From a virus, in IMG/VR virus record IMGVR_UViG_3300032224_001746, positions 1-24,726 of that record: a stretch of 24,726 nucleotides of DNA; one strand, written 5' to 3'. Each line of letters begins with the position of its first letter. Positions within the stretch are counted from its first letter, which is position 1. The notes under the pieces are model-generated. The model saw nothing but the letters and a program-made list of their open reading frames with translations, searched no databases and had not been told where the DNA came from. Below are positions 2,748 through 21,211 of the stretch, in pieces. The translations under genes and the position numbers were made by a program.

Positions 2748-2800
2748 GCATCATTGTCATGGCTGTAATTATATTGATTGAATGGAAAATAAAAATATGA
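2744..2800 (+). CDS. Possible 18-residue membrane peptide
   Basis: A tiny ORF starting at ATG 2744 inside the previous stop and ending in a TGA (2798-2800) that overlaps the next ATG at 2797. It is almost entirely hydrophobic (MSIIVMAVIILIEW) with a basic end. Its ATGA overlaps on both sides fit a translational-coupling relay. It could also be a chance ORF, and no independent evidence supports it. Confidence 0.3.
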   Translation: MSIIVMAVIILIEWKIKI

Positions 2801-3186
2801 GCATTTCAGCATATAAAGAAATAACCGAATGGGAAGATTCGGATGGTATTTTGTGTAACCATACATATTTGTTTGATGGTAAATCAAATGCATTGGCATA
2901 TGCCAAACAATCAAGCAATGATATCACCGTGTTCAAAAAGCCATTGCCTATCAATACCAGTCGCCGTAAGTTTATCAAAGTGGTACATCCAGGGCTAGAA
3001 GAAATTGCTCGTAATTTTGTGGTACAAGAAAAACCCAACAATTATCCTTTTTGGAAAGTCAAAAGTGACTCAGGAAAAGAATATATGGTAGAATTGATTG
3101 GTGGTAATTACCATTGCAATTGTAAAGGTTACCAATTCCGTGGTAAATGCAAGCACAGCGATTCTGTAAAAGCAGAACAAAAATAA
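2797..3186 (+). CDS. SWIM zinc-finger domain protein
   Basis: About 129 residues. The C-terminal part has the SWIM pattern C-x-C-x8-C-x-H: HCNCKGYQF then GKCKH, with C107, C109, C118 and H120. SWIM fingers are known to bind DNA or protein in recombination-linked proteins and transposases. The N-terminal two thirds show no recognised domain. ATG 2797 overlaps the preceding stop as ATGA; ATG 2782 in the same frame is an alternative that adds MENKN. It is the last gene before a hairpin-rich promoter region. Its role in the phage is unknown. Confidence 0.8.
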   Translation: MSISAYKEITEWEDSDGILCNHTYLFDGKSNALAYAKQSSNDITVFKKPLPINTSRRKFIKVVHPGLEEIARNFVVQEKPNNYPFWKVKSDSGKEYMVELIGGNYHCNCKGYQFRGKCKHSDSVKAEQK

Positions 3187-6752: not shown

Positions 6753-7097
6753 ATGACTATTACTATTCGTAAAGGCAAACCTAACCGCCACGAAAAAATC
6801 ACTCAAGTGATGCTCTCTGGCAAACCCGTAACACCTGAAGAAATTCAGGCTGTATTCAAAGGCACAGACCAAGAAGCAGTTCTGTATCGCCTATCAACCA
6901 ACATCTACAACATTCGTAAAGATGGTGGTATTGTTAAGGTGATTAAGAATGGCCGTAAGGTTCAAGCATATCAATTGGTTAACTTTGACCAGTTCGATAA
7001 GAACGGCCGTTTTGTACAGAAGAAAGCACCTGTTGCCGCTAAACCTGTTGCAACACCTGCACCTGTTACTGAAACAAAAACTGAGGTAACAGTATAA
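6753..7097 (+). CDS. Putative winged-helix-like DNA-binding protein
   Basis: A 114-residue protein. Residues about 10-80 look like a winged helix: KITQVMLSGKPVTPEEI, then LYRLSTNIYNIRKDGGIVKV with basic NGRKVQAYQL as a wing. The C-terminal 30 residues are a Pro/Ala/Lys-rich flexible tail. ATG 6753 follows a good AAAGGA site; an upstream in-frame ATG at 6729 is less likely. First in its operon and moderately basic, it could be an early transcription regulator. DNA binding is inferred from the fold pattern only. Confidence 0.6.
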   Translation: MTITIRKGKPNRHEKITQVMLSGKPVTPEEIQAVFKGTDQEAVLYRLSTNIYNIRKDGGIVKVIKNGRKVQAYQLVNFDQFDKNGRFVQKKAPVAAKPVATPAPVTETKTEVTV

Positions 7098-7318
7098 TGA
7101 CAAAATACATCGCAAAGCCATCTTTGTTTAATAACAAAGACATGATGGAATTTGACGATGCGAAGTCTGCTATTGTTTACTTAAACTCTAAACTATCGGC
7201 AGTCGGGTCACACCCCGACTCCGATTATGTTTATATCGAACCTAAGGTTTCAAGTAAACACCTCAAACGTTCCATCGAAGAATATATGTGGATTGGTAAA
7301 TTGATTGTTCAGGAGTAA
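7097..7318 (+). CDS. Small hypothetical phage protein
   Basis: A 73-residue protein starting MTKYIAKPSLFNNKDMMEF, with ATG 7097 overlapping the previous TAA by one base. A short helical segment (DDAKSAIVYLNSKL) is followed by DYVYIEPKVSSKHLKRSI and a hydrophobic WIGKLIVQE end. There is no recognised domain. Position and overlap support translation in the 6753 operon. Confidence 0.6.
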   Translation: MTKYIAKPSLFNNKDMMEFDDAKSAIVYLNSKLSAVGSHPDSDYVYIEPKVSSKHLKRSIEEYMWIGKLIVQE

Positions 7319-16846: not shown

Positions 16847-17410
16847 ATGAAACAAACTAAACACACCTATTGTCATGCTTTTGGTTATGTGATTAGTAAA
16901 TCACTATATGAACCAGATGATGAAATTGTTAACGAAAAGTGTAATTTTTTTGAAGAAAATATTTATTATATTACAGGACCTTTTGTTAGAGATAAATTAC
17001 ATTACGGCGATAAAGACAACTGCATCATTTGGTTAAACGTTAGTGGACATATGCAAGTTAAAAATGTTGAAACTGGTGAAATACAAGACCGTTTTGCGGG
17101 TGCTAGCAACTTAATAACAACAGAAGAAGTTGGTACATATATTGGCGGATGTATTGAACCCGCAATTGTATTCAGTATATGGCCAGAAAACAATTTTAAC
17201 AACAGTCCAGTAATACCAGACTTAGAATATTTCAAATTAGAAAAAGGTGCCACATATAACGCAAAGATTGGCACAAAATTATTCCTTGCAGAAGGAACAA
17301 TACAGATTGATAATAATGATCCAGTATCCTCAACCAGACAAATCAGAGTTCAATCTGGTGACAAAGTATTTACTGCAATAAGTGACTGTTATGGATTCAT
17401 ATTCAAATGA
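16847..17410 (+). CDS. Hypothetical beta-rich protein in the oxygenase operon
   Basis: A 187-residue protein. The alternating pattern, with GPFVRDKLHYGDKD, CIIWLNVSGHMQVKNV, TYIGGCIEPAIVFSIWP and GTKLFLAEGTIQI, suggests a beta-sandwich or cupin-like fold. No complete cupin metal motif is seen. It starts just after the previous stop and its 3' end overlaps the first oxygenase gene. It could be a binding partner of the neighbouring oxygenases or a virion protein. I do not recognise the family. Confidence 0.6.
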   Translation: MKQTKHTYCHAFGYVISKSLYEPDDEIVNEKCNFFEENIYYITGPFVRDKLHYGDKDNCIIWLNVSGHMQVKNVETGEIQDRFAGASNLITTEEVGTYIGGCIEPAIVFSIWPENNFNNSPVIPDLEYFKLEKGATYNAKIGTKLFLAEGTIQIDNNDPVSSTRQIRVQSGDKVFTAISDCYGFIFK

Positions 17411-17960
17411 TTTTTGTACCAAGTTAAATCTAAAACTTGATACCACGGGTATAAATTTAGATATCGAAAATCTTCCTTTTCATAATGAATTTTATCGACC
17501 ACAAAAATACGCAATGAAAATGTTGCGTGACAAATCAAATCATTTCACAACAAATAAAACATACCAATTACTAGACGAAGATAAAAAGAAAATCATTGCA
17601 CAACTACCACAATCATTATTGGCACTCGAAACGCCAGATGATATTGGTATTATGAGTATGATTTTACCTGAGAGTGATGATGTAGTTTACTTACCACCAC
17701 ATATAGATAAAGTTAGATTGGCCGCAATCAACTTCTACTTAGAAACAAGTGGTGGTGAAACATTATACTATGACTACATAGATGGTGAACTAACAGAAAA
17801 ATTTAAGTTTGTGGCAAACAATCATGATATTTGGTTGCTAGATGTTGACAAACCACACTCGGTTAAGATACAATATCCTTATGTTAGGAAAGTTTTGACT
17901 ATATCATTTAAAAAATTAAAATATGGAGAAGTCTTGAATCATGTCTGCGGAAATATTTAA
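17391..17960 (+). CDS. 2-oxoglutarate/Fe(II) oxygenase-like protein 1
   Basis: A 189-residue protein. The C-terminal half has the double-stranded beta-helix signature: PPHIDK gives HxD at H104/D106, INFYLETSGGETLYY follows, the distal His is H156 in KPHSV, and R166 in VRKVLTISF fits the 2-oxoglutarate-binding position. The first 90 residues are helical. ATG 17391 was chosen over an in-frame GTG at 17382; both overlap the end of the previous gene. It is the first of five oxygenase-like genes in a row. Such enzymes hydroxylate proteins, nucleic acids or small molecules; the substrate is unknown. Confidence 0.75.
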   Translation: MDSYSNDFCTKLNLKLDTTGINLDIENLPFHNEFYRPQKYAMKMLRDKSNHFTTNKTYQLLDEDKKKIIAQLPQSLLALETPDDIGIMSMILPESDDVVYLPPHIDKVRLAAINFYLETSGGETLYYDYIDGELTEKFKFVANNHDIWLLDVDKPHSVKIQYPYVRKVLTISFKKLKYGEVLNHVCGNI

Positions 17961-18552
17961 AAAGCATGGCGCCCTAGAGGTTGCCGATATGATACCAATT
18001 GAGTTCTGCCATTTCTTTACTCACGTATTAATGCACGCTGGTGATATTCTTAGATATAAAAATATGCGAACCGGTGATGAACAGATTCCAAATGCTGCAT
18101 CTAAGTTAGAACATGAACCCATGTTTGAAACATTACAGGAAAGATTATGGCCTGTCATTGAAAATTTAACAGGCCTTCAACTGTATCCAACATACACATA
18201 CGCCAGACTGTATACCAATGGTGATGTGTTAGAAAAACATTCTGATAGACCATCATGTGAAATTAGTGTTACATTACAATTAGGTCGTTCACATCATTAT
18301 GCATGGCCAATTTATATGGGTGGAAAAAGATTTGACTTGGCTGAAGGTTCTGCTGTAATCTACAGAGGTTATGACATAGAACATTGGAGAGATAAATGTG
18401 ATGGTCCACCAGACTATTACTCTGGTCAAGTATTTCTACACTATGTAGATAGAAACGGTCCTTTTACTGAATATGCAGGAGATGGTAAACATAGACCTGG
18501 ATATATTAGAACATATCATCCATACAGAACATACGCAATGGAATCTAAATGA
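17941..18552 (+). CDS. 2-oxoglutarate/Fe(II) oxygenase-like protein 2
   Basis: A 203-residue protein. The HxD motif is in LEKHSDRPSCEIS (H100, D102), followed by a strand VTLQLGR, and the distal His is H148 in DIEHWRD. The domain fills most of the protein; a C-terminal RPGYIRTYHPYR tail follows. It overlaps the preceding gene by 20 bases and the next start by ATGA. Similar proteins are known among T4-like phages near structural genes. The substrate is unknown, and the 2-oxoglutarate-binding Arg is not certain from the sequence. Confidence 0.75.
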   Translation: MSAEIFKKHGALEVADMIPIEFCHFFTHVLMHAGDILRYKNMRTGDEQIPNAASKLEHEPMFETLQERLWPVIENLTGLQLYPTYTYARLYTNGDVLEKHSDRPSCEISVTLQLGRSHHYAWPIYMGGKRFDLAEGSAVIYRGYDIEHWRDKCDGPPDYYSGQVFLHYVDRNGPFTEYAGDGKHRPGYIRTYHPYRTYAMESK

Positions 18553-19031
18553 TAGTTATATTAGATGATGTGTTGAATGATGAGGGTGTAAAGATTATTC
18601 GTCAAATATTTGAAAATGAAAAATTCAGAAAGAATAACTGGTTAGATACTACACTTGACCACGCACAACAAATAAATTCTCCAATTGCTAGTCTTATACA
18701 AATTGCTTCAAAGTTTTTTGATATATCATCTATGGTTGGCTGTGAAATATGGGCACACTATGGCACCAGACCTGAATGGCATCACGATAAAGATGAATTG
18801 GCAAGTAAAAACGGCGAACTAAAATTTCCTTTGTGTGGTATTGTTTATTATCCATTGATTGAGAATTTAGTGGGTGGTAGATTGTTAACTGGTTCAGAAC
18901 AAATTGTACCCAAAACAAACAGAATGGTATTGTTCAGTCCAGGAATACTACATACTGTTGAACCATACGAAGGCAATAGAATGTCTGTTGCTATTAATCC
19001 TTGGAATTATATATTGAGTGAATACAAATAA
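18549..19031 (+). CDS. 2-oxoglutarate/Fe(II) oxygenase-like protein 3
   Basis: A compact 160-residue protein. Metal motif WHHDKD gives H78-x-D80, FPLCGIVYYPL is a core strand, LVGGRLL fits the usual G-G-x-L turn, H135 in GILHTVEP is the distal His and R144 in EGNRMSVAI fits 2-oxoglutarate binding. All four expected active-site residues are thus present. It starts inside the previous stop (ATGA), implying coupled translation. It is shorter than its neighbours but complete. The target is unknown. Confidence 0.75.
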   Translation: MIVILDDVLNDEGVKIIRQIFENEKFRKNNWLDTTLDHAQQINSPIASLIQIASKFFDISSMVGCEIWAHYGTRPEWHHDKDELASKNGELKFPLCGIVYYPLIENLVGGRLLTGSEQIVPKTNRMVLFSPGILHTVEPYEGNRMSVAINPWNYILSEYK

Positions 19032-19633
19032 TGCAATATCCTATACCCCCACGAAATAATTTTGGTCAAGATATCTCAGCATTTTGGGAAGGCTTTTTAA
19101 CAGACGATGAAATTAATTGGATTCTAGCCAGACAAGAATGGATTAATAATGAACGTGCTGGTGTTGGAGGTCAAACTGGTATGCCAGCTATTAATGATAA
19201 TATTAGACGAAGTGATGTTGGTTGGTTAAACATTACACCAGAAACCGAATGGCTTTGGGAAAAAATAACTCACGTTGTTGCTGAAATGAATCGAAGATTT
19301 TTTAGATTTGACTTAACTGGTTGTTATGAACCTATGCAGTTAGGCATCTATAAACATACTGACGAAGGACATTACAACTGGCATACAGATGCTGGTATGG
19401 GTGATGCAGCTGCACCAAGAAAATTATCAATGTCTATTTTATTATCTGACCCATCTGAATTTGAAGGTGGTGAATTTCAGATGAAAACATTCAGCGATGA
19501 TCCAATCACACTTGAAAATAAAAAAGGTCGTGCTTGGTTTTTCCCATCTTATTGTTTACATAGAGTAGCACCGGTTACTAAGGGCGTTAGACGTTCATTG
19601 GTGTTATGGGTTGGAGGCCCACCATTTAAATGA
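19031..19633 (+). CDS. 2-oxoglutarate/Fe(II) oxygenase, prolyl-hydroxylase-like
   Basis: A 200-residue protein and the clearest member of the set: YNWHTDAG gives H118/D120, SMSILLSDPSEFEGGEFQM is the typical core with EGGEF, CLHRVAPVTKGVRRSLVLW gives H177 and R187/R188, and it ends WVGGPPFK. This is the pattern of the PKHD/P4Hc-type hydroxylases. The N-terminal part carries GFLTDDEINWIL. It overlaps the previous stop by one base and the next start by ATGA. The substrate is unknown; a fibre protein is one possibility. Confidence 0.85.
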   Translation: MQYPIPPRNNFGQDISAFWEGFLTDDEINWILARQEWINNERAGVGGQTGMPAINDNIRRSDVGWLNITPETEWLWEKITHVVAEMNRRFFRFDLTGCYEPMQLGIYKHTDEGHYNWHTDAGMGDAAAPRKLSMSILLSDPSEFEGGEFQMKTFSDDPITLENKKGRAWFFPSYCLHRVAPVTKGVRRSLVLWVGGPPFK

Positions 19634-20295
19634 CATTCGTTTATTGCCCACCAAAAGAGATACCAAATCTCACCTCAGAAACTTTTCCAGACGGCAAACG
19701 TTATTACGTTTTACCTGATGGTTCAAAAGTACCATCTATCACCACAGTACTGTCTGCAATGAAACGTGAATCCATTATGAAGTGGAGAAAAAGTGTTGGT
19801 GAAGAAAAAGCCAATGCCATTTCACGTAAAGCATCTGGTCGTGGTACAAATGTGCATACTTTATGTGAAAGATACTTGAATAATGATGCACTAGGTGATA
19901 TAATGCCTGATGCAAAAGAAATGTTCTTGGCAATCAAACCATTATTGAATCGTATCAATAACATCCATTACCAAGAACAATCATTGTGGTCGACACAACT
20001 TGGCCTTGCTGGTCGTGTTGATTGTATTGCTGAGTTTGATGGTGTATTGTCTGTAATCGATTTTAAGACTTCACGTAAGATTAAAAAGAGAGACAATATT
20101 TTAGATTATTTTTGGCAAGAAACTGCGTATGCTCTGATGTATGAAGAAATTGTTGGAAATCCAATTGACCAAATTGTAACAATTATGGCAGTTGAAGATG
20201 AGCAACCATTGTTGTTTATTGAACACACAGAGGATCATATTGAAGGTTTAGTTAAAGCGATTGAGTTTTATAAAAATGATAGAAAATACAGTTGA
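19630..20295 (+). CDS. PD-(D/E)XK exonuclease, RecB/MGME1-like
   Basis: A 221-residue nuclease. Seen: an N-terminal PSITTVLSAMKRES helix region, GRGTNVHTLCERYL with H76 and E80, GLAGRVDCIAEFDG with D131, VIDFKTSRK with D144 and K146, and WQETAYALMYEE with Q163 and Y167. These are the ordered motifs of the RecB-like/Cas4-like branch, and T4-like cyanophages are known to carry a similar exonuclease. It probably trims DNA ends in replication, recombination or host DNA degradation. It sits between the fourth and fifth oxygenase genes, overlapping both neighbours. Confidence 0.85.
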   Translation: MTFVYCPPKEIPNLTSETFPDGKRYYVLPDGSKVPSITTVLSAMKRESIMKWRKSVGEEKANAISRKASGRGTNVHTLCERYLNNDALGDIMPDAKEMFLAIKPLLNRINNIHYQEQSLWSTQLGLAGRVDCIAEFDGVLSVIDFKTSRKIKKRDNILDYFWQETAYALMYEEIVGNPIDQIVTIMAVEDEQPLLFIEHTEDHIEGLVKAIEFYKNDRKYS

Positions 20296-20812
20296 TAGAG
20301 GAAAGAAAATAAAAGTCTTTGACAATCTTTTTGATATGTTAACAAGACAACGTTTCTTTAATTATGTAAACAATTCGATGTATAGAATAGGTTGGGCTGA
20401 CGGAGATATTCCTGAGAAACAACATCATACCTACTTACATTCAATCTATACACCAGATGATTTGAAGAATATGGGACTACTTGAAGCTTTTGAGAAGTCG
20501 CCATTGTTGAAAGAAGTAGAAGGTTTAAGATTGTGTAAAGCAAATGTAAATTTGTCTACACCACTTGATGTACATTTTGTACATTCACATCCACATAAAA
20601 AAGCAGTTTTGTTTTATTTGAATTTGGAATGGCATGATGGTTGGTATGGTGAAACAATGTTTTATGATGAACAACAAAAGAACGTTTTGTTCACATCACC
20701 ATATGTACCTGGTAGAGTAATTGTATTTGATTCGTCTGTACCACATACATTAAGGCCACAATCAATCATTGGTGCAAAACACAGATTCACATTAGCATTA
20801 TTTTTTGAATAA
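20276..20812 (+). CDS. 2-oxoglutarate/Fe(II) oxygenase-like protein 5, HxH variant
   Basis: A 178-residue protein. The core VLFYLNLEWHDGWYGETMFY, YVPGRVIVFDSSVPHTLRP (H157) and HRFTLALFF (R170) fit the double-stranded beta-helix family. The usual HxD position reads VHSHPH, so the metal triad would be H103-x-H105 rather than His-Asp, which may be normal for this subfamily. ATG 20276 lies inside the exonuclease gene; an in-frame TTG at 20261 is less likely. The stop TAA overlaps an ATAAATA late-promoter motif in front of the tmRNA gene. Confidence 0.75.
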   Translation: MIENTVDRGKKIKVFDNLFDMLTRQRFFNYVNNSMYRIGWADGDIPEKQHHTYLHSIYTPDDLKNMGLLEAFEKSPLLKEVEGLRLCKANVNLSTPLDVHFVHSHPHKKAVLFYLNLEWHDGWYGETMFYDEQQKNVLFTSPYVPGRVIVFDSSVPHTLRPQSIIGAKHRFTLALFFE

Positions 20813-20815
20813 ATA
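20809..20815 (+). promoter_or_regulatory. T4-late-type promoter motif before the tmRNA gene
   Basis: ATAAATA at 20809-20815 matches the last seven bases of the T4 late consensus TATAAATA and overlaps the stop of the preceding gene. Expected transcription start is near 20821, immediately before the tmRNA acceptor piece. Confidence 0.5.
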
Positions 20816-20895
20816 ATTTTATGGTTGTATGAAGTAAAGAGAAAAGTGTTCTGGACGGGGGTGCGAATCCCCCCATCTCCACCATAAGGATTTTT

Positions 20896-20994
20896 ATGTT
20901 TGATGAATGGCATTGGGTTTATCTATGGGGCATATTAATTTGGATAAATTATATATTCTGTCTCATAAAAAGTCTTTATGATGGGGATGACTAG
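20896..20994 (+). CDS. Small membrane-protein ORF inside the tmRNA intervening segment
   Basis: A 32-residue ORF starting MFDEWHWVYLWGILIWINYI and ending CLIKSLYDGDD. It has a ribosome binding site (AAGGA at 20886-20890) five bases before ATG 20896. It is one Trp-rich membrane segment with charged ends. The ORF fills the tmRNA intervening segment and its last 12 bases lie within the tmRNA coding piece, the TAG being at 20992-20994. Its protein-like composition suggests a real gene. It may be translated from the unprocessed precursor. The function is unknown; a membrane or lysis-related role is only a guess. Confidence 0.55.
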   Translation: MFDEWHWVYLWGILIWINYIFCLIKSLYDGDD

Positions 20995-21065
20995 TTTCGA
21001 CAGGGCAAAGAGTAACAGAGTGGACAAGTCGACACAGAGAGTCGTAAAAAGTAAATAAAGTAAAC

Positions 21066-21098
21066 GCAAACGATGAAAAGTTCGCATTAGCAGCTTAA
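21066..21098 (+). other. tmRNA tag-peptide reading frame
   Basis: GCA is the resume codon and the frame reads ANDEKFALAA then TAA. With the alanine carried by tmRNA the added tag is AANDEKFALAA, close to E. coli AANDENYALAA and ending in the ALAA recognised by ClpXP. It is translated only after template switching on stalled ribosomes, so it is not a free-standing gene. Confidence 0.92.
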
Positions 21099-21148
21099 AG
21101 GCCGCTTAGGGTTTCGGTTGGTTTCCTCGTAACAGAATAACCAACCAT

Positions 21149-21156
21149 TATAAATA
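21149..21156 (+). promoter_or_regulatory. T4-late-type promoter, exact TATAAATA
   Basis: TATAAATA at 21149-21156 matches the T4 late promoter consensus exactly. It lies three bases after the hairpin closing the tmRNA coding piece and about 55 bases before ATG 21212, so it probably drives late expression of the 21212 gene and the endolysin. Confidence 0.7.
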
Positions 21157-21211
21157 AACCACCAACACACACATTTAGTTGGTATACACACAAACACACA
21201 AGGAGAAAACT

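Follow-up and report, generated by a model that had tools for sequence, protein, structure and literature searches.

The permuted tmRNA gene of the window and its spacer

The window, i.e., the whole stretch of 24,726 nucleotides analyzed here (positions 1 to 24,726 of IMG/VR virus record IMGVR_UViG_3300032224_001746), holds a single tmRNA gene, which is phage-encoded, has the permuted two-piece form, and lies at approximately 20821-21153, as shown by ARAGORN and two Rfam models. ARAGORN places the permuted gene at 20792-21189 with the tag ANDEKFALAA*. RF04321 (tmRNA_permuted) matches 20823-21098 with 120.4 bits against a gathering threshold of 47 (E 2.3e-23, model positions 1-213 of 213), and RF01850 (beta_tmRNA) matches 20772-21153 over its full length with 101 bits against a gathering threshold of 84 (E 5.8e-30). 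The features of the locus are listed below with the evidence for each.

20821-20884, + strand: acceptor piece of the tmRNA (RF04321 and RF01850 matches, ARAGORN, fold, and direct reading)
20847-20853, + strand: 3' strand of P2, TGTTCTG (direct reading; fold)
20857-20873, + strand: T arm (direct reading; fold)
20874-20880, + strand: 3' strand of the acceptor stem, CATCTCC (direct reading)
20881, + strand: discriminator A (direct reading)
20882-20884, + strand: CCA (direct reading)
20883-20980, + strand: predicted terminal helix of the precursor, 13 bp, 20883-20895 with 20968-20980 (MFE and centroid folds; complementarity of spacer ends across families)
20885-20982, + strand: spacer (intervening segment), 98 nt, between CCA and the paired 5' acceptor strand
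20886-20890, + strand: AAGGA, the Shine-Dalgarno sequence for the nested ORF, 2 nt after CCA and 5 nt upstream of the ATG (direct reading)
20896-20994, + strand: nested small ORF, 32 aa, MFDEWHWVYLWGILIWINYIFCLIKSLYDGDD (translation, relatives, coding-type substitutions, hydropathy)
20983-21098, + strand: coding piece of the tmRNA (ARAGORN, Rfam, parsing)
20983-20989, + strand: 5' strand of the acceptor stem, GGGGATG (direct reading)
20996-21001, + strand: TTCGAC (direct reading)
21001-21007, + strand: 5' strand of P2, CAGGGCA (direct reading)
21066-21098, + strand: tag reading frame ANDEKFALAA* (ARAGORN, Rfam, parsing)
21099-21153, + strand: 3' part of the coding piece, the downstream stem region of the beta tmRNA model (RF01850 match to 21153)

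The acceptor piece thus lies upstream of the coding piece, and the two pair across the permutation. The original prediction had called a permuted, phage-encoded tmRNA gene here and named covariance models and ARAGORN as checks on it; the claim held, with both checks positive, and its account of the anatomy held to the base, that is, an acceptor stem with 7/7 pairs, including one G-U at position 3, and a P2 of seven pairs, two of them G-U. P2, the T arm, and the acceptor stem were all recovered in the MFE fold as well. Its spacer of about 98 bases is exactly 98 nt by direct reading, and the RNA ends it expected at 20884 and 20983 agree with the sequence, the processing at 20884 and by RNase P at 20982/20983 being predicted only, without RNA end data. 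A T4-like context had also been claimed and is supported by nearby genes for a gp32-type SSB, a helicase loader, an exonuclease, and an endolysin. The roles suggested for the tmRNA, namely boosting ribosome rescue or replacing the host tmRNA, are conjecture without experimental test. What failed was the view of the spacer as filler, for a conserved protein-coding gene lies inside it.

The G3-U70 identity element is present by sequence, alanine charging and SmpB-dependent trans-translation being putative, and the tag ends in ALAA, the canonical hydrophobic proteolysis signal. The tmRNA is most likely functional because all conserved parts are retained in the loci that carry a spacer ORF; this is an inference from those parts, and activity remains untested. 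The spacer itself is likely absent from the mature two-piece tmRNA, the cleavage being only predicted.

Directly 3' of CCA, the spacer reads TAAGGA, five further bases, and then the ATG of the nested ORF, whose TAG stop is situated between the 5' acceptor strand and TTCGAC, i.e., 3' of the expected RNase P site. The last codons of the ORF overlap the acceptor strand, and part of the peptide conservation is therefore imposed by the RNA. Hydropathy predicts a single membrane helix for the 32-aa peptide, and a membrane-associated phage function, which is possible, is the furthest claim we offer for it. No family was found for the nested peptide in PHROGs or Pfam, and its free-standing form gave only a weak match to phrog_14813 (E 0.007). 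A holin was considered, and no evidence links the peptide to the cell-wall hydrolase gene (PF07486) two genes downstream, the proximity of which is merely suggestive. As for transcription, a single late-promoter motif, TATAAATA at 21149, is no more than expected by chance, and no convincing sigma-70 promoter was found for the locus.

The locus is preceded by an exonuclease gene and a run of 2OG-Fe(II) oxygenase-type genes, and is followed by genes for the cell-wall hydrolase, the helicase loader, a nucleotidase, and the gp32-type SSB, which is closest to cyanophage gp32 (≤57%). Homologues of most flanking genes surround the same tmRNA in contigs bearing relatives of the peptide. Within 16847-20812, five consecutive genes, the exonuclease gene among them, resemble 2OG-Fe(II) oxygenases or small enzymes of a similar kind; the PF13640 match is significant for 19031-19633 and near the cut-off for 18549-19031 and 20261-20812.

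Small protein genes in the spacers of viral permuted tmRNAs

The family of the window's peptide, designated WHWVY, was found in 14 distinct nested versions and, outside spacers, in 7 distinct free-standing copies with a different C-terminus and their own stop (SLFDNVKE*), several of which immediately precede a permuted tmRNA. Each of the 12 nested relatives that parsed has a spacer of exactly 98 nt. Mean conservation among nested relatives is 84% in the spacer, 77% in the acceptor piece, and 64% in the coding piece, and between the window and L154 the spacers are 99% alike and the flanks 88% and 86%. This pattern fits a cassette passed between phages via the conserved tmRNA flanks, a possibility that has no tree behind it.

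The conservation of the coding frame is shown by 11 disjoint pairs of spacers from 8 families, in which pN/pS is 0.335 in the proposed frame versus 0.71 and 1.30 in the other two, and in which 108 of 218 differences fall on third codon positions (p = 5.6e-7). Codons in the terminal helix were left out of the pN/pS test; because some of the disjoint pairs are not fully independent, the p-value should be read as approximate.

For a wider survey, permuted tmRNAs were gathered from IMG/VR via acceptor-piece patterns alone, a neighboring gene, an ORF-type pattern, and the DNA of the peptide, and were parsed by a finder that requires two paired acceptor strands and a tag. This anchor-based finder makes false calls on standard bacterial tmRNAs (L460, L470, and L494), and those were excluded. 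ORFs qualified when a Shine-Dalgarno sequence and a start lay within the first 26 nt and the frame spanned the spacer. In the two samples gathered by acceptor-piece patterns alone, and thus without regard to ORFs, this definition was met by 14 of 97 distinct spacers, compared with a mean of 3.2 and a maximum of 8 in shuffles. Across all samples, spanning ORFs occur in 43 of 150 distinct viral spacers and belong to many unrelated families; 107 of the 150 have none, and the ORF is therefore optional. Spacers of ≥150 nt hold an ORF by the strict criteria in 15 of 19 cases, and L257, L317, and L202 have further spanning frames outside the strict cut.

The recurrence of unrelated families at a fixed position is also shown. 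A Shine-Dalgarno sequence stands at the spacer start in 41/43 ORF-bearing versus 4/107 ORF-less viral spacers, and 37 of the 43 ORFs start at +11 with the Shine-Dalgarno sequence inside the terminal helix. The ORF-type search pattern selected in part for this offset, which nevertheless recurs in ORF-bearing spacers from the unbiased samples. In 21 of the 43, the frame closes with a stop codon that ends 1 nt before the 5' acceptor strand, where RNase P is expected to cut. The acceptor stem, T arm, P2, TTCGAC, and canonical ALAA-ending tag are retained at these relatives as they are in the window.

By hydropathy, 20 of the 43 spacer ORFs look like single membrane helices. The ORF on the reverse strand of L246, whose spacer is 284 nt long, matches Pfam PF03692 with 29.4 bits against a cut-off of 23. 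Its product is a putative metal-binding CxxCxxCC protein, so that here a recognizable domain is encoded within a tmRNA spacer. Another family, Y-T-[QE]-x-EW-[DNS]-R-x-VGWG, is free-standing and also enters tmRNA spacers through read-through of the acceptor piece. In L025, L034 (read-through locus at 2780-3010), L044, L561, L537, L540, and L548, among others, the frame opens upstream of the acceptor piece, crosses it, reading it as approximately 20 residues (e.g., MTVRSEEKSVLDAGANPAISTK), and enters the spacer, where it encodes the conserved Y-T-x-x-EW-x-R-x-VGWG domain that is also a common free-standing small protein in many marine viral contigs. The tRNA-like domain itself would then be decoded as protein, an inference drawn from sequence alone.

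The nested-gene format is shown, within the samples taken, for many uncultured phages and for none of the bacteria. The permuted tmRNAs of alpha- and betaproteobacteria, collected with Rfam covariance-model searches since a scan of a genome collection gave mostly other matches, have spacers of 3-57 nt (median 30) apart from one or two outliers, and none of the sampled cellular genes has an ORF inside its spacer. Three frames flagged by the script in cellular spacers of 25-36 nt run mainly in the coding piece and were rejected. The WHWVY DNA pattern is absent from 84,980 bacterial and archaeal species genomes, and a search of 635 alpha- and betaproteobacterial genomes for CCACCA-N-AAGGA-N5-ATG recovered no tmRNA; the lone match was a tRNA followed by an unrelated gene. 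No homologues of spacer ORFs were found in 50,697 isolate-phage records at the thresholds used, searches with queries this short being rather insensitive. The Stenotrophomonas phages recovered through DNA similarity carry a plain 57-nt hairpin spacer.

The predicted precursor helix and two proposed uses of one transcript

The predicted terminal helix prolongs the acceptor stem past CCA and buries the Shine-Dalgarno sequence. The complementarity underlying this burial is shown. Whether or not a viral spacer has an ORF, its two ends are complementary, with helix scores of 19.9 versus 14.1 after random re-pairing for spacers that have one and 21.4 versus 11.9 for those that do not. For 25 family representatives the score was 20.0 versus 13.7 when re-paired, 0 of 1000 shuffles scored as high, and the ends co-vary. 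The Shine-Dalgarno sequence falls within the helix in 39 of 43 ORF-bearing spacers, and its predicted unpaired probability, averaged over the 43 loci, is 0.57 in the nascent RNA but 0.04 once the precursor is complete and 0.11 in the spacer after excision; the corresponding predictions for the window are 0.86, 0.00, and 0.01. These fold energies are those of naked RNA without ribosomes or proteins. The helix is equally strong without an ORF, and the burial may therefore be a side effect of a need for the helix in tmRNA maturation.

Taken together, we consider it likely, with a probability of roughly 0.75, that the locus is a permuted tmRNA gene of the beta type, from a T4-like phage, and that its spacer is at the same time a gene for a small protein, the roles of messenger and precursor excluding each other. 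In this view, transcription would yield one RNA with the acceptor piece first, the mini-gene next, and the coding piece last. Pairing of the spacer ends would let the acceptor stem form, and the spacer would then be cut out by RNase P (20982/20983) and 3' processing (20884) to give a two-piece tmRNA that appends ANDEKFALAA. If a ribosome instead loads at AAGGA/ATG on RNA that is still being made, the 32-aa membrane peptide would be translated, and neither the acceptor stem nor the cleavage sites could form while the ribosome is on the spacer. A given RNA molecule would thus serve as messenger or as tmRNA precursor, never as both at once. Since the ribosome-binding site is hidden in the folded precursor, the most likely template for the peptide is a transcript that is nascent or unfolded; the competition between the two uses follows from the geometry. 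Production of the peptide, in vivo competition of maturation and translation, and whatever role the peptide may have are nevertheless inferred, there being no transcript, ribosome-profiling, or protein data, and that the competition is regulated or useful is a hypothesis only.

The most serious alternative is that the ORF works as a regulatory leader, in which its translation, not its product, matters: free ribosomes would translate it and block maturation, and when ribosomes are scarce or stalled the precursor would fold and tmRNA would be made. The +11 start with a helix-embedded Shine-Dalgarno sequence in 37/43, the start at +10 to +12 in the unbiased long spacers L288, L246, L229, L257, and L317 despite room in the loop, the predicted switch in Shine-Dalgarno accessibility, and the stop 1 nt before the RNase P site in 21/43 all speak for it. 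However, amino-acid conservation and the presence of unrelated families in the slot, one with a Pfam domain, imply that the products matter too, the fixed position may be inherited from one ancestral cassette, and part of the sample was picked by the pattern that fixes +11, so that we judge this reading possible but less likely than not. A bolder reading, which we likewise consider less likely than not, takes the spacers as a gene slot whose format is fixed (a helix-embedded Shine-Dalgarno sequence right after CCA, then the ORF, then a stop next to where RNase P cuts) and whose contents, small genes unrelated to one another, are exchanged, with the helix acting as an either/or switch that senses ribosome availability.

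It is also conceivable that the excised spacer of the WHWVY class, a short mRNA ending in ...GAT without a stop, is a built-in non-stop message and itself a tmRNA substrate, given that in every nested WHWVY member, as in the MEQW family, the ORF extends beyond the expected cut. The stop 1 nt before the cut in 21/43 means that this cannot be general, and the fold prediction leaves the Shine-Dalgarno sequence paired after excision of the spacer; we therefore regard the idea as unlikely. The ORF is short and most viral spacers have none, as would be expected of a chance frame in an ordinary permuted tmRNA, but the coding-type substitutions, free-standing homologues, Pfam domain, and excess over shuffles all but exclude that explanation. 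Finally, the tmRNA might have been ruined by insertion of the ORF or might be a decoy titrating SmpB, as was suggested for the tRNA-like domain of DS6A (PMC4131195), and phage forms consisting only of the tRNA-like domain are known to inhibit tmRNA (PMC4131195, PMC11915505). The intact acceptor stem (7/7), T arm, P2, TTCGAC, and ALAA tag, found in the ORF-bearing relatives also, make this very improbable.

Relation to known tmRNA genes

Two-piece tmRNA in a phage is as such a known kind, to which the window gene adds a member. A 2014 survey listed ten phages with ssrA (PMC4131195). A two-piece tmRNA carried by the OM43 phage Melnitz was published in 2022 together with the finding that 53 of 133 unique phage tmRNA structures are two-piece by ARAGORN, 50 of these in marine or aquatic phages (PMC9004378). 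The current tmRNA database, the source of the RF04321 model, contains 79 phage sequences and 11,946 permuted ones (PMC11915505), and more than 150 viral loci with permuted tmRNA were gathered in this analysis. With Melnitz and permuted tmRNAs in general (RF04321, RF01850; PMC9004378), the window gene shares the gene order, acceptor stem, T arm, TTCGAC, P2, and tag frame, and with Melnitz also a T4-like aquatic phage as carrier (PMC9004378); it differs from known permuted tmRNAs in its 98-nt spacer with a conserved protein gene. The relevant sections of two papers on phage and permuted tmRNA do not mention a spacer ORF, and no description of the nested-gene arrangement was found in the open-access literature searched, although a prior description elsewhere is not excluded.

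Two further systems come close. Group I intron tmRNA genes with a homing endonuclease gene (PMC11915505) likewise hold a protein gene within a segment missing from the mature tmRNA, but the segment in the window is a permuted spacer, to be removed by tRNA-type processing, and the spacer ORFs described here are of 22-86 aa and mostly of unknown family. No group I intron or homing endonuclease was seen at the locus, where the T-loop TGCGAAT is uninterrupted and the Rfam search returned only tmRNA models. A permuted tmRNA with tRNA-Ala in the intervening sequence, reported for one MAG (PMC11915505), also has a second gene in that place; it is, however, an RNA gene and a single case, in contrast with the protein genes recurring here in a fixed format.

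The findings indicate that phage RNA taken for a discarded spacer can be a protein gene, and that a "non-coding" RNA gene may be transcribed together with a messenger whose use is in structural conflict with its own. They add a set of putative small phage proteins, most of them membrane proteins, that gene callers miss; such genes will stay hidden wherever tmRNA annotation passes over long intervening sequences, and the locus offers a testable system for asking whether phages couple ribosome rescue to ribosome availability.

Several individual loci show peculiarities of their own. The ARAGORN tags of L014, L084, and L049 are unusually long or odd (e.g., VKSKKPINANDNSYALAA), probably through miscalled resume codons. 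The spacer ORF of the MWKKNYRGM family is broken right after its start (ATG TGA) in L162 and L174 (compare L143, L160, and L176), and in L162 a downstream in-frame ATG leaves the conserved part open, suggesting either re-started translation or decay. In L202 (approximately 6880-7280), the tmRNA gene of which is missed by ARAGORN, the tmRNA is immediately preceded by a WHWVY gene, and the 376-nt spacer contains two tandem ORFs, each with its own Shine-Dalgarno sequence and helix-like end.
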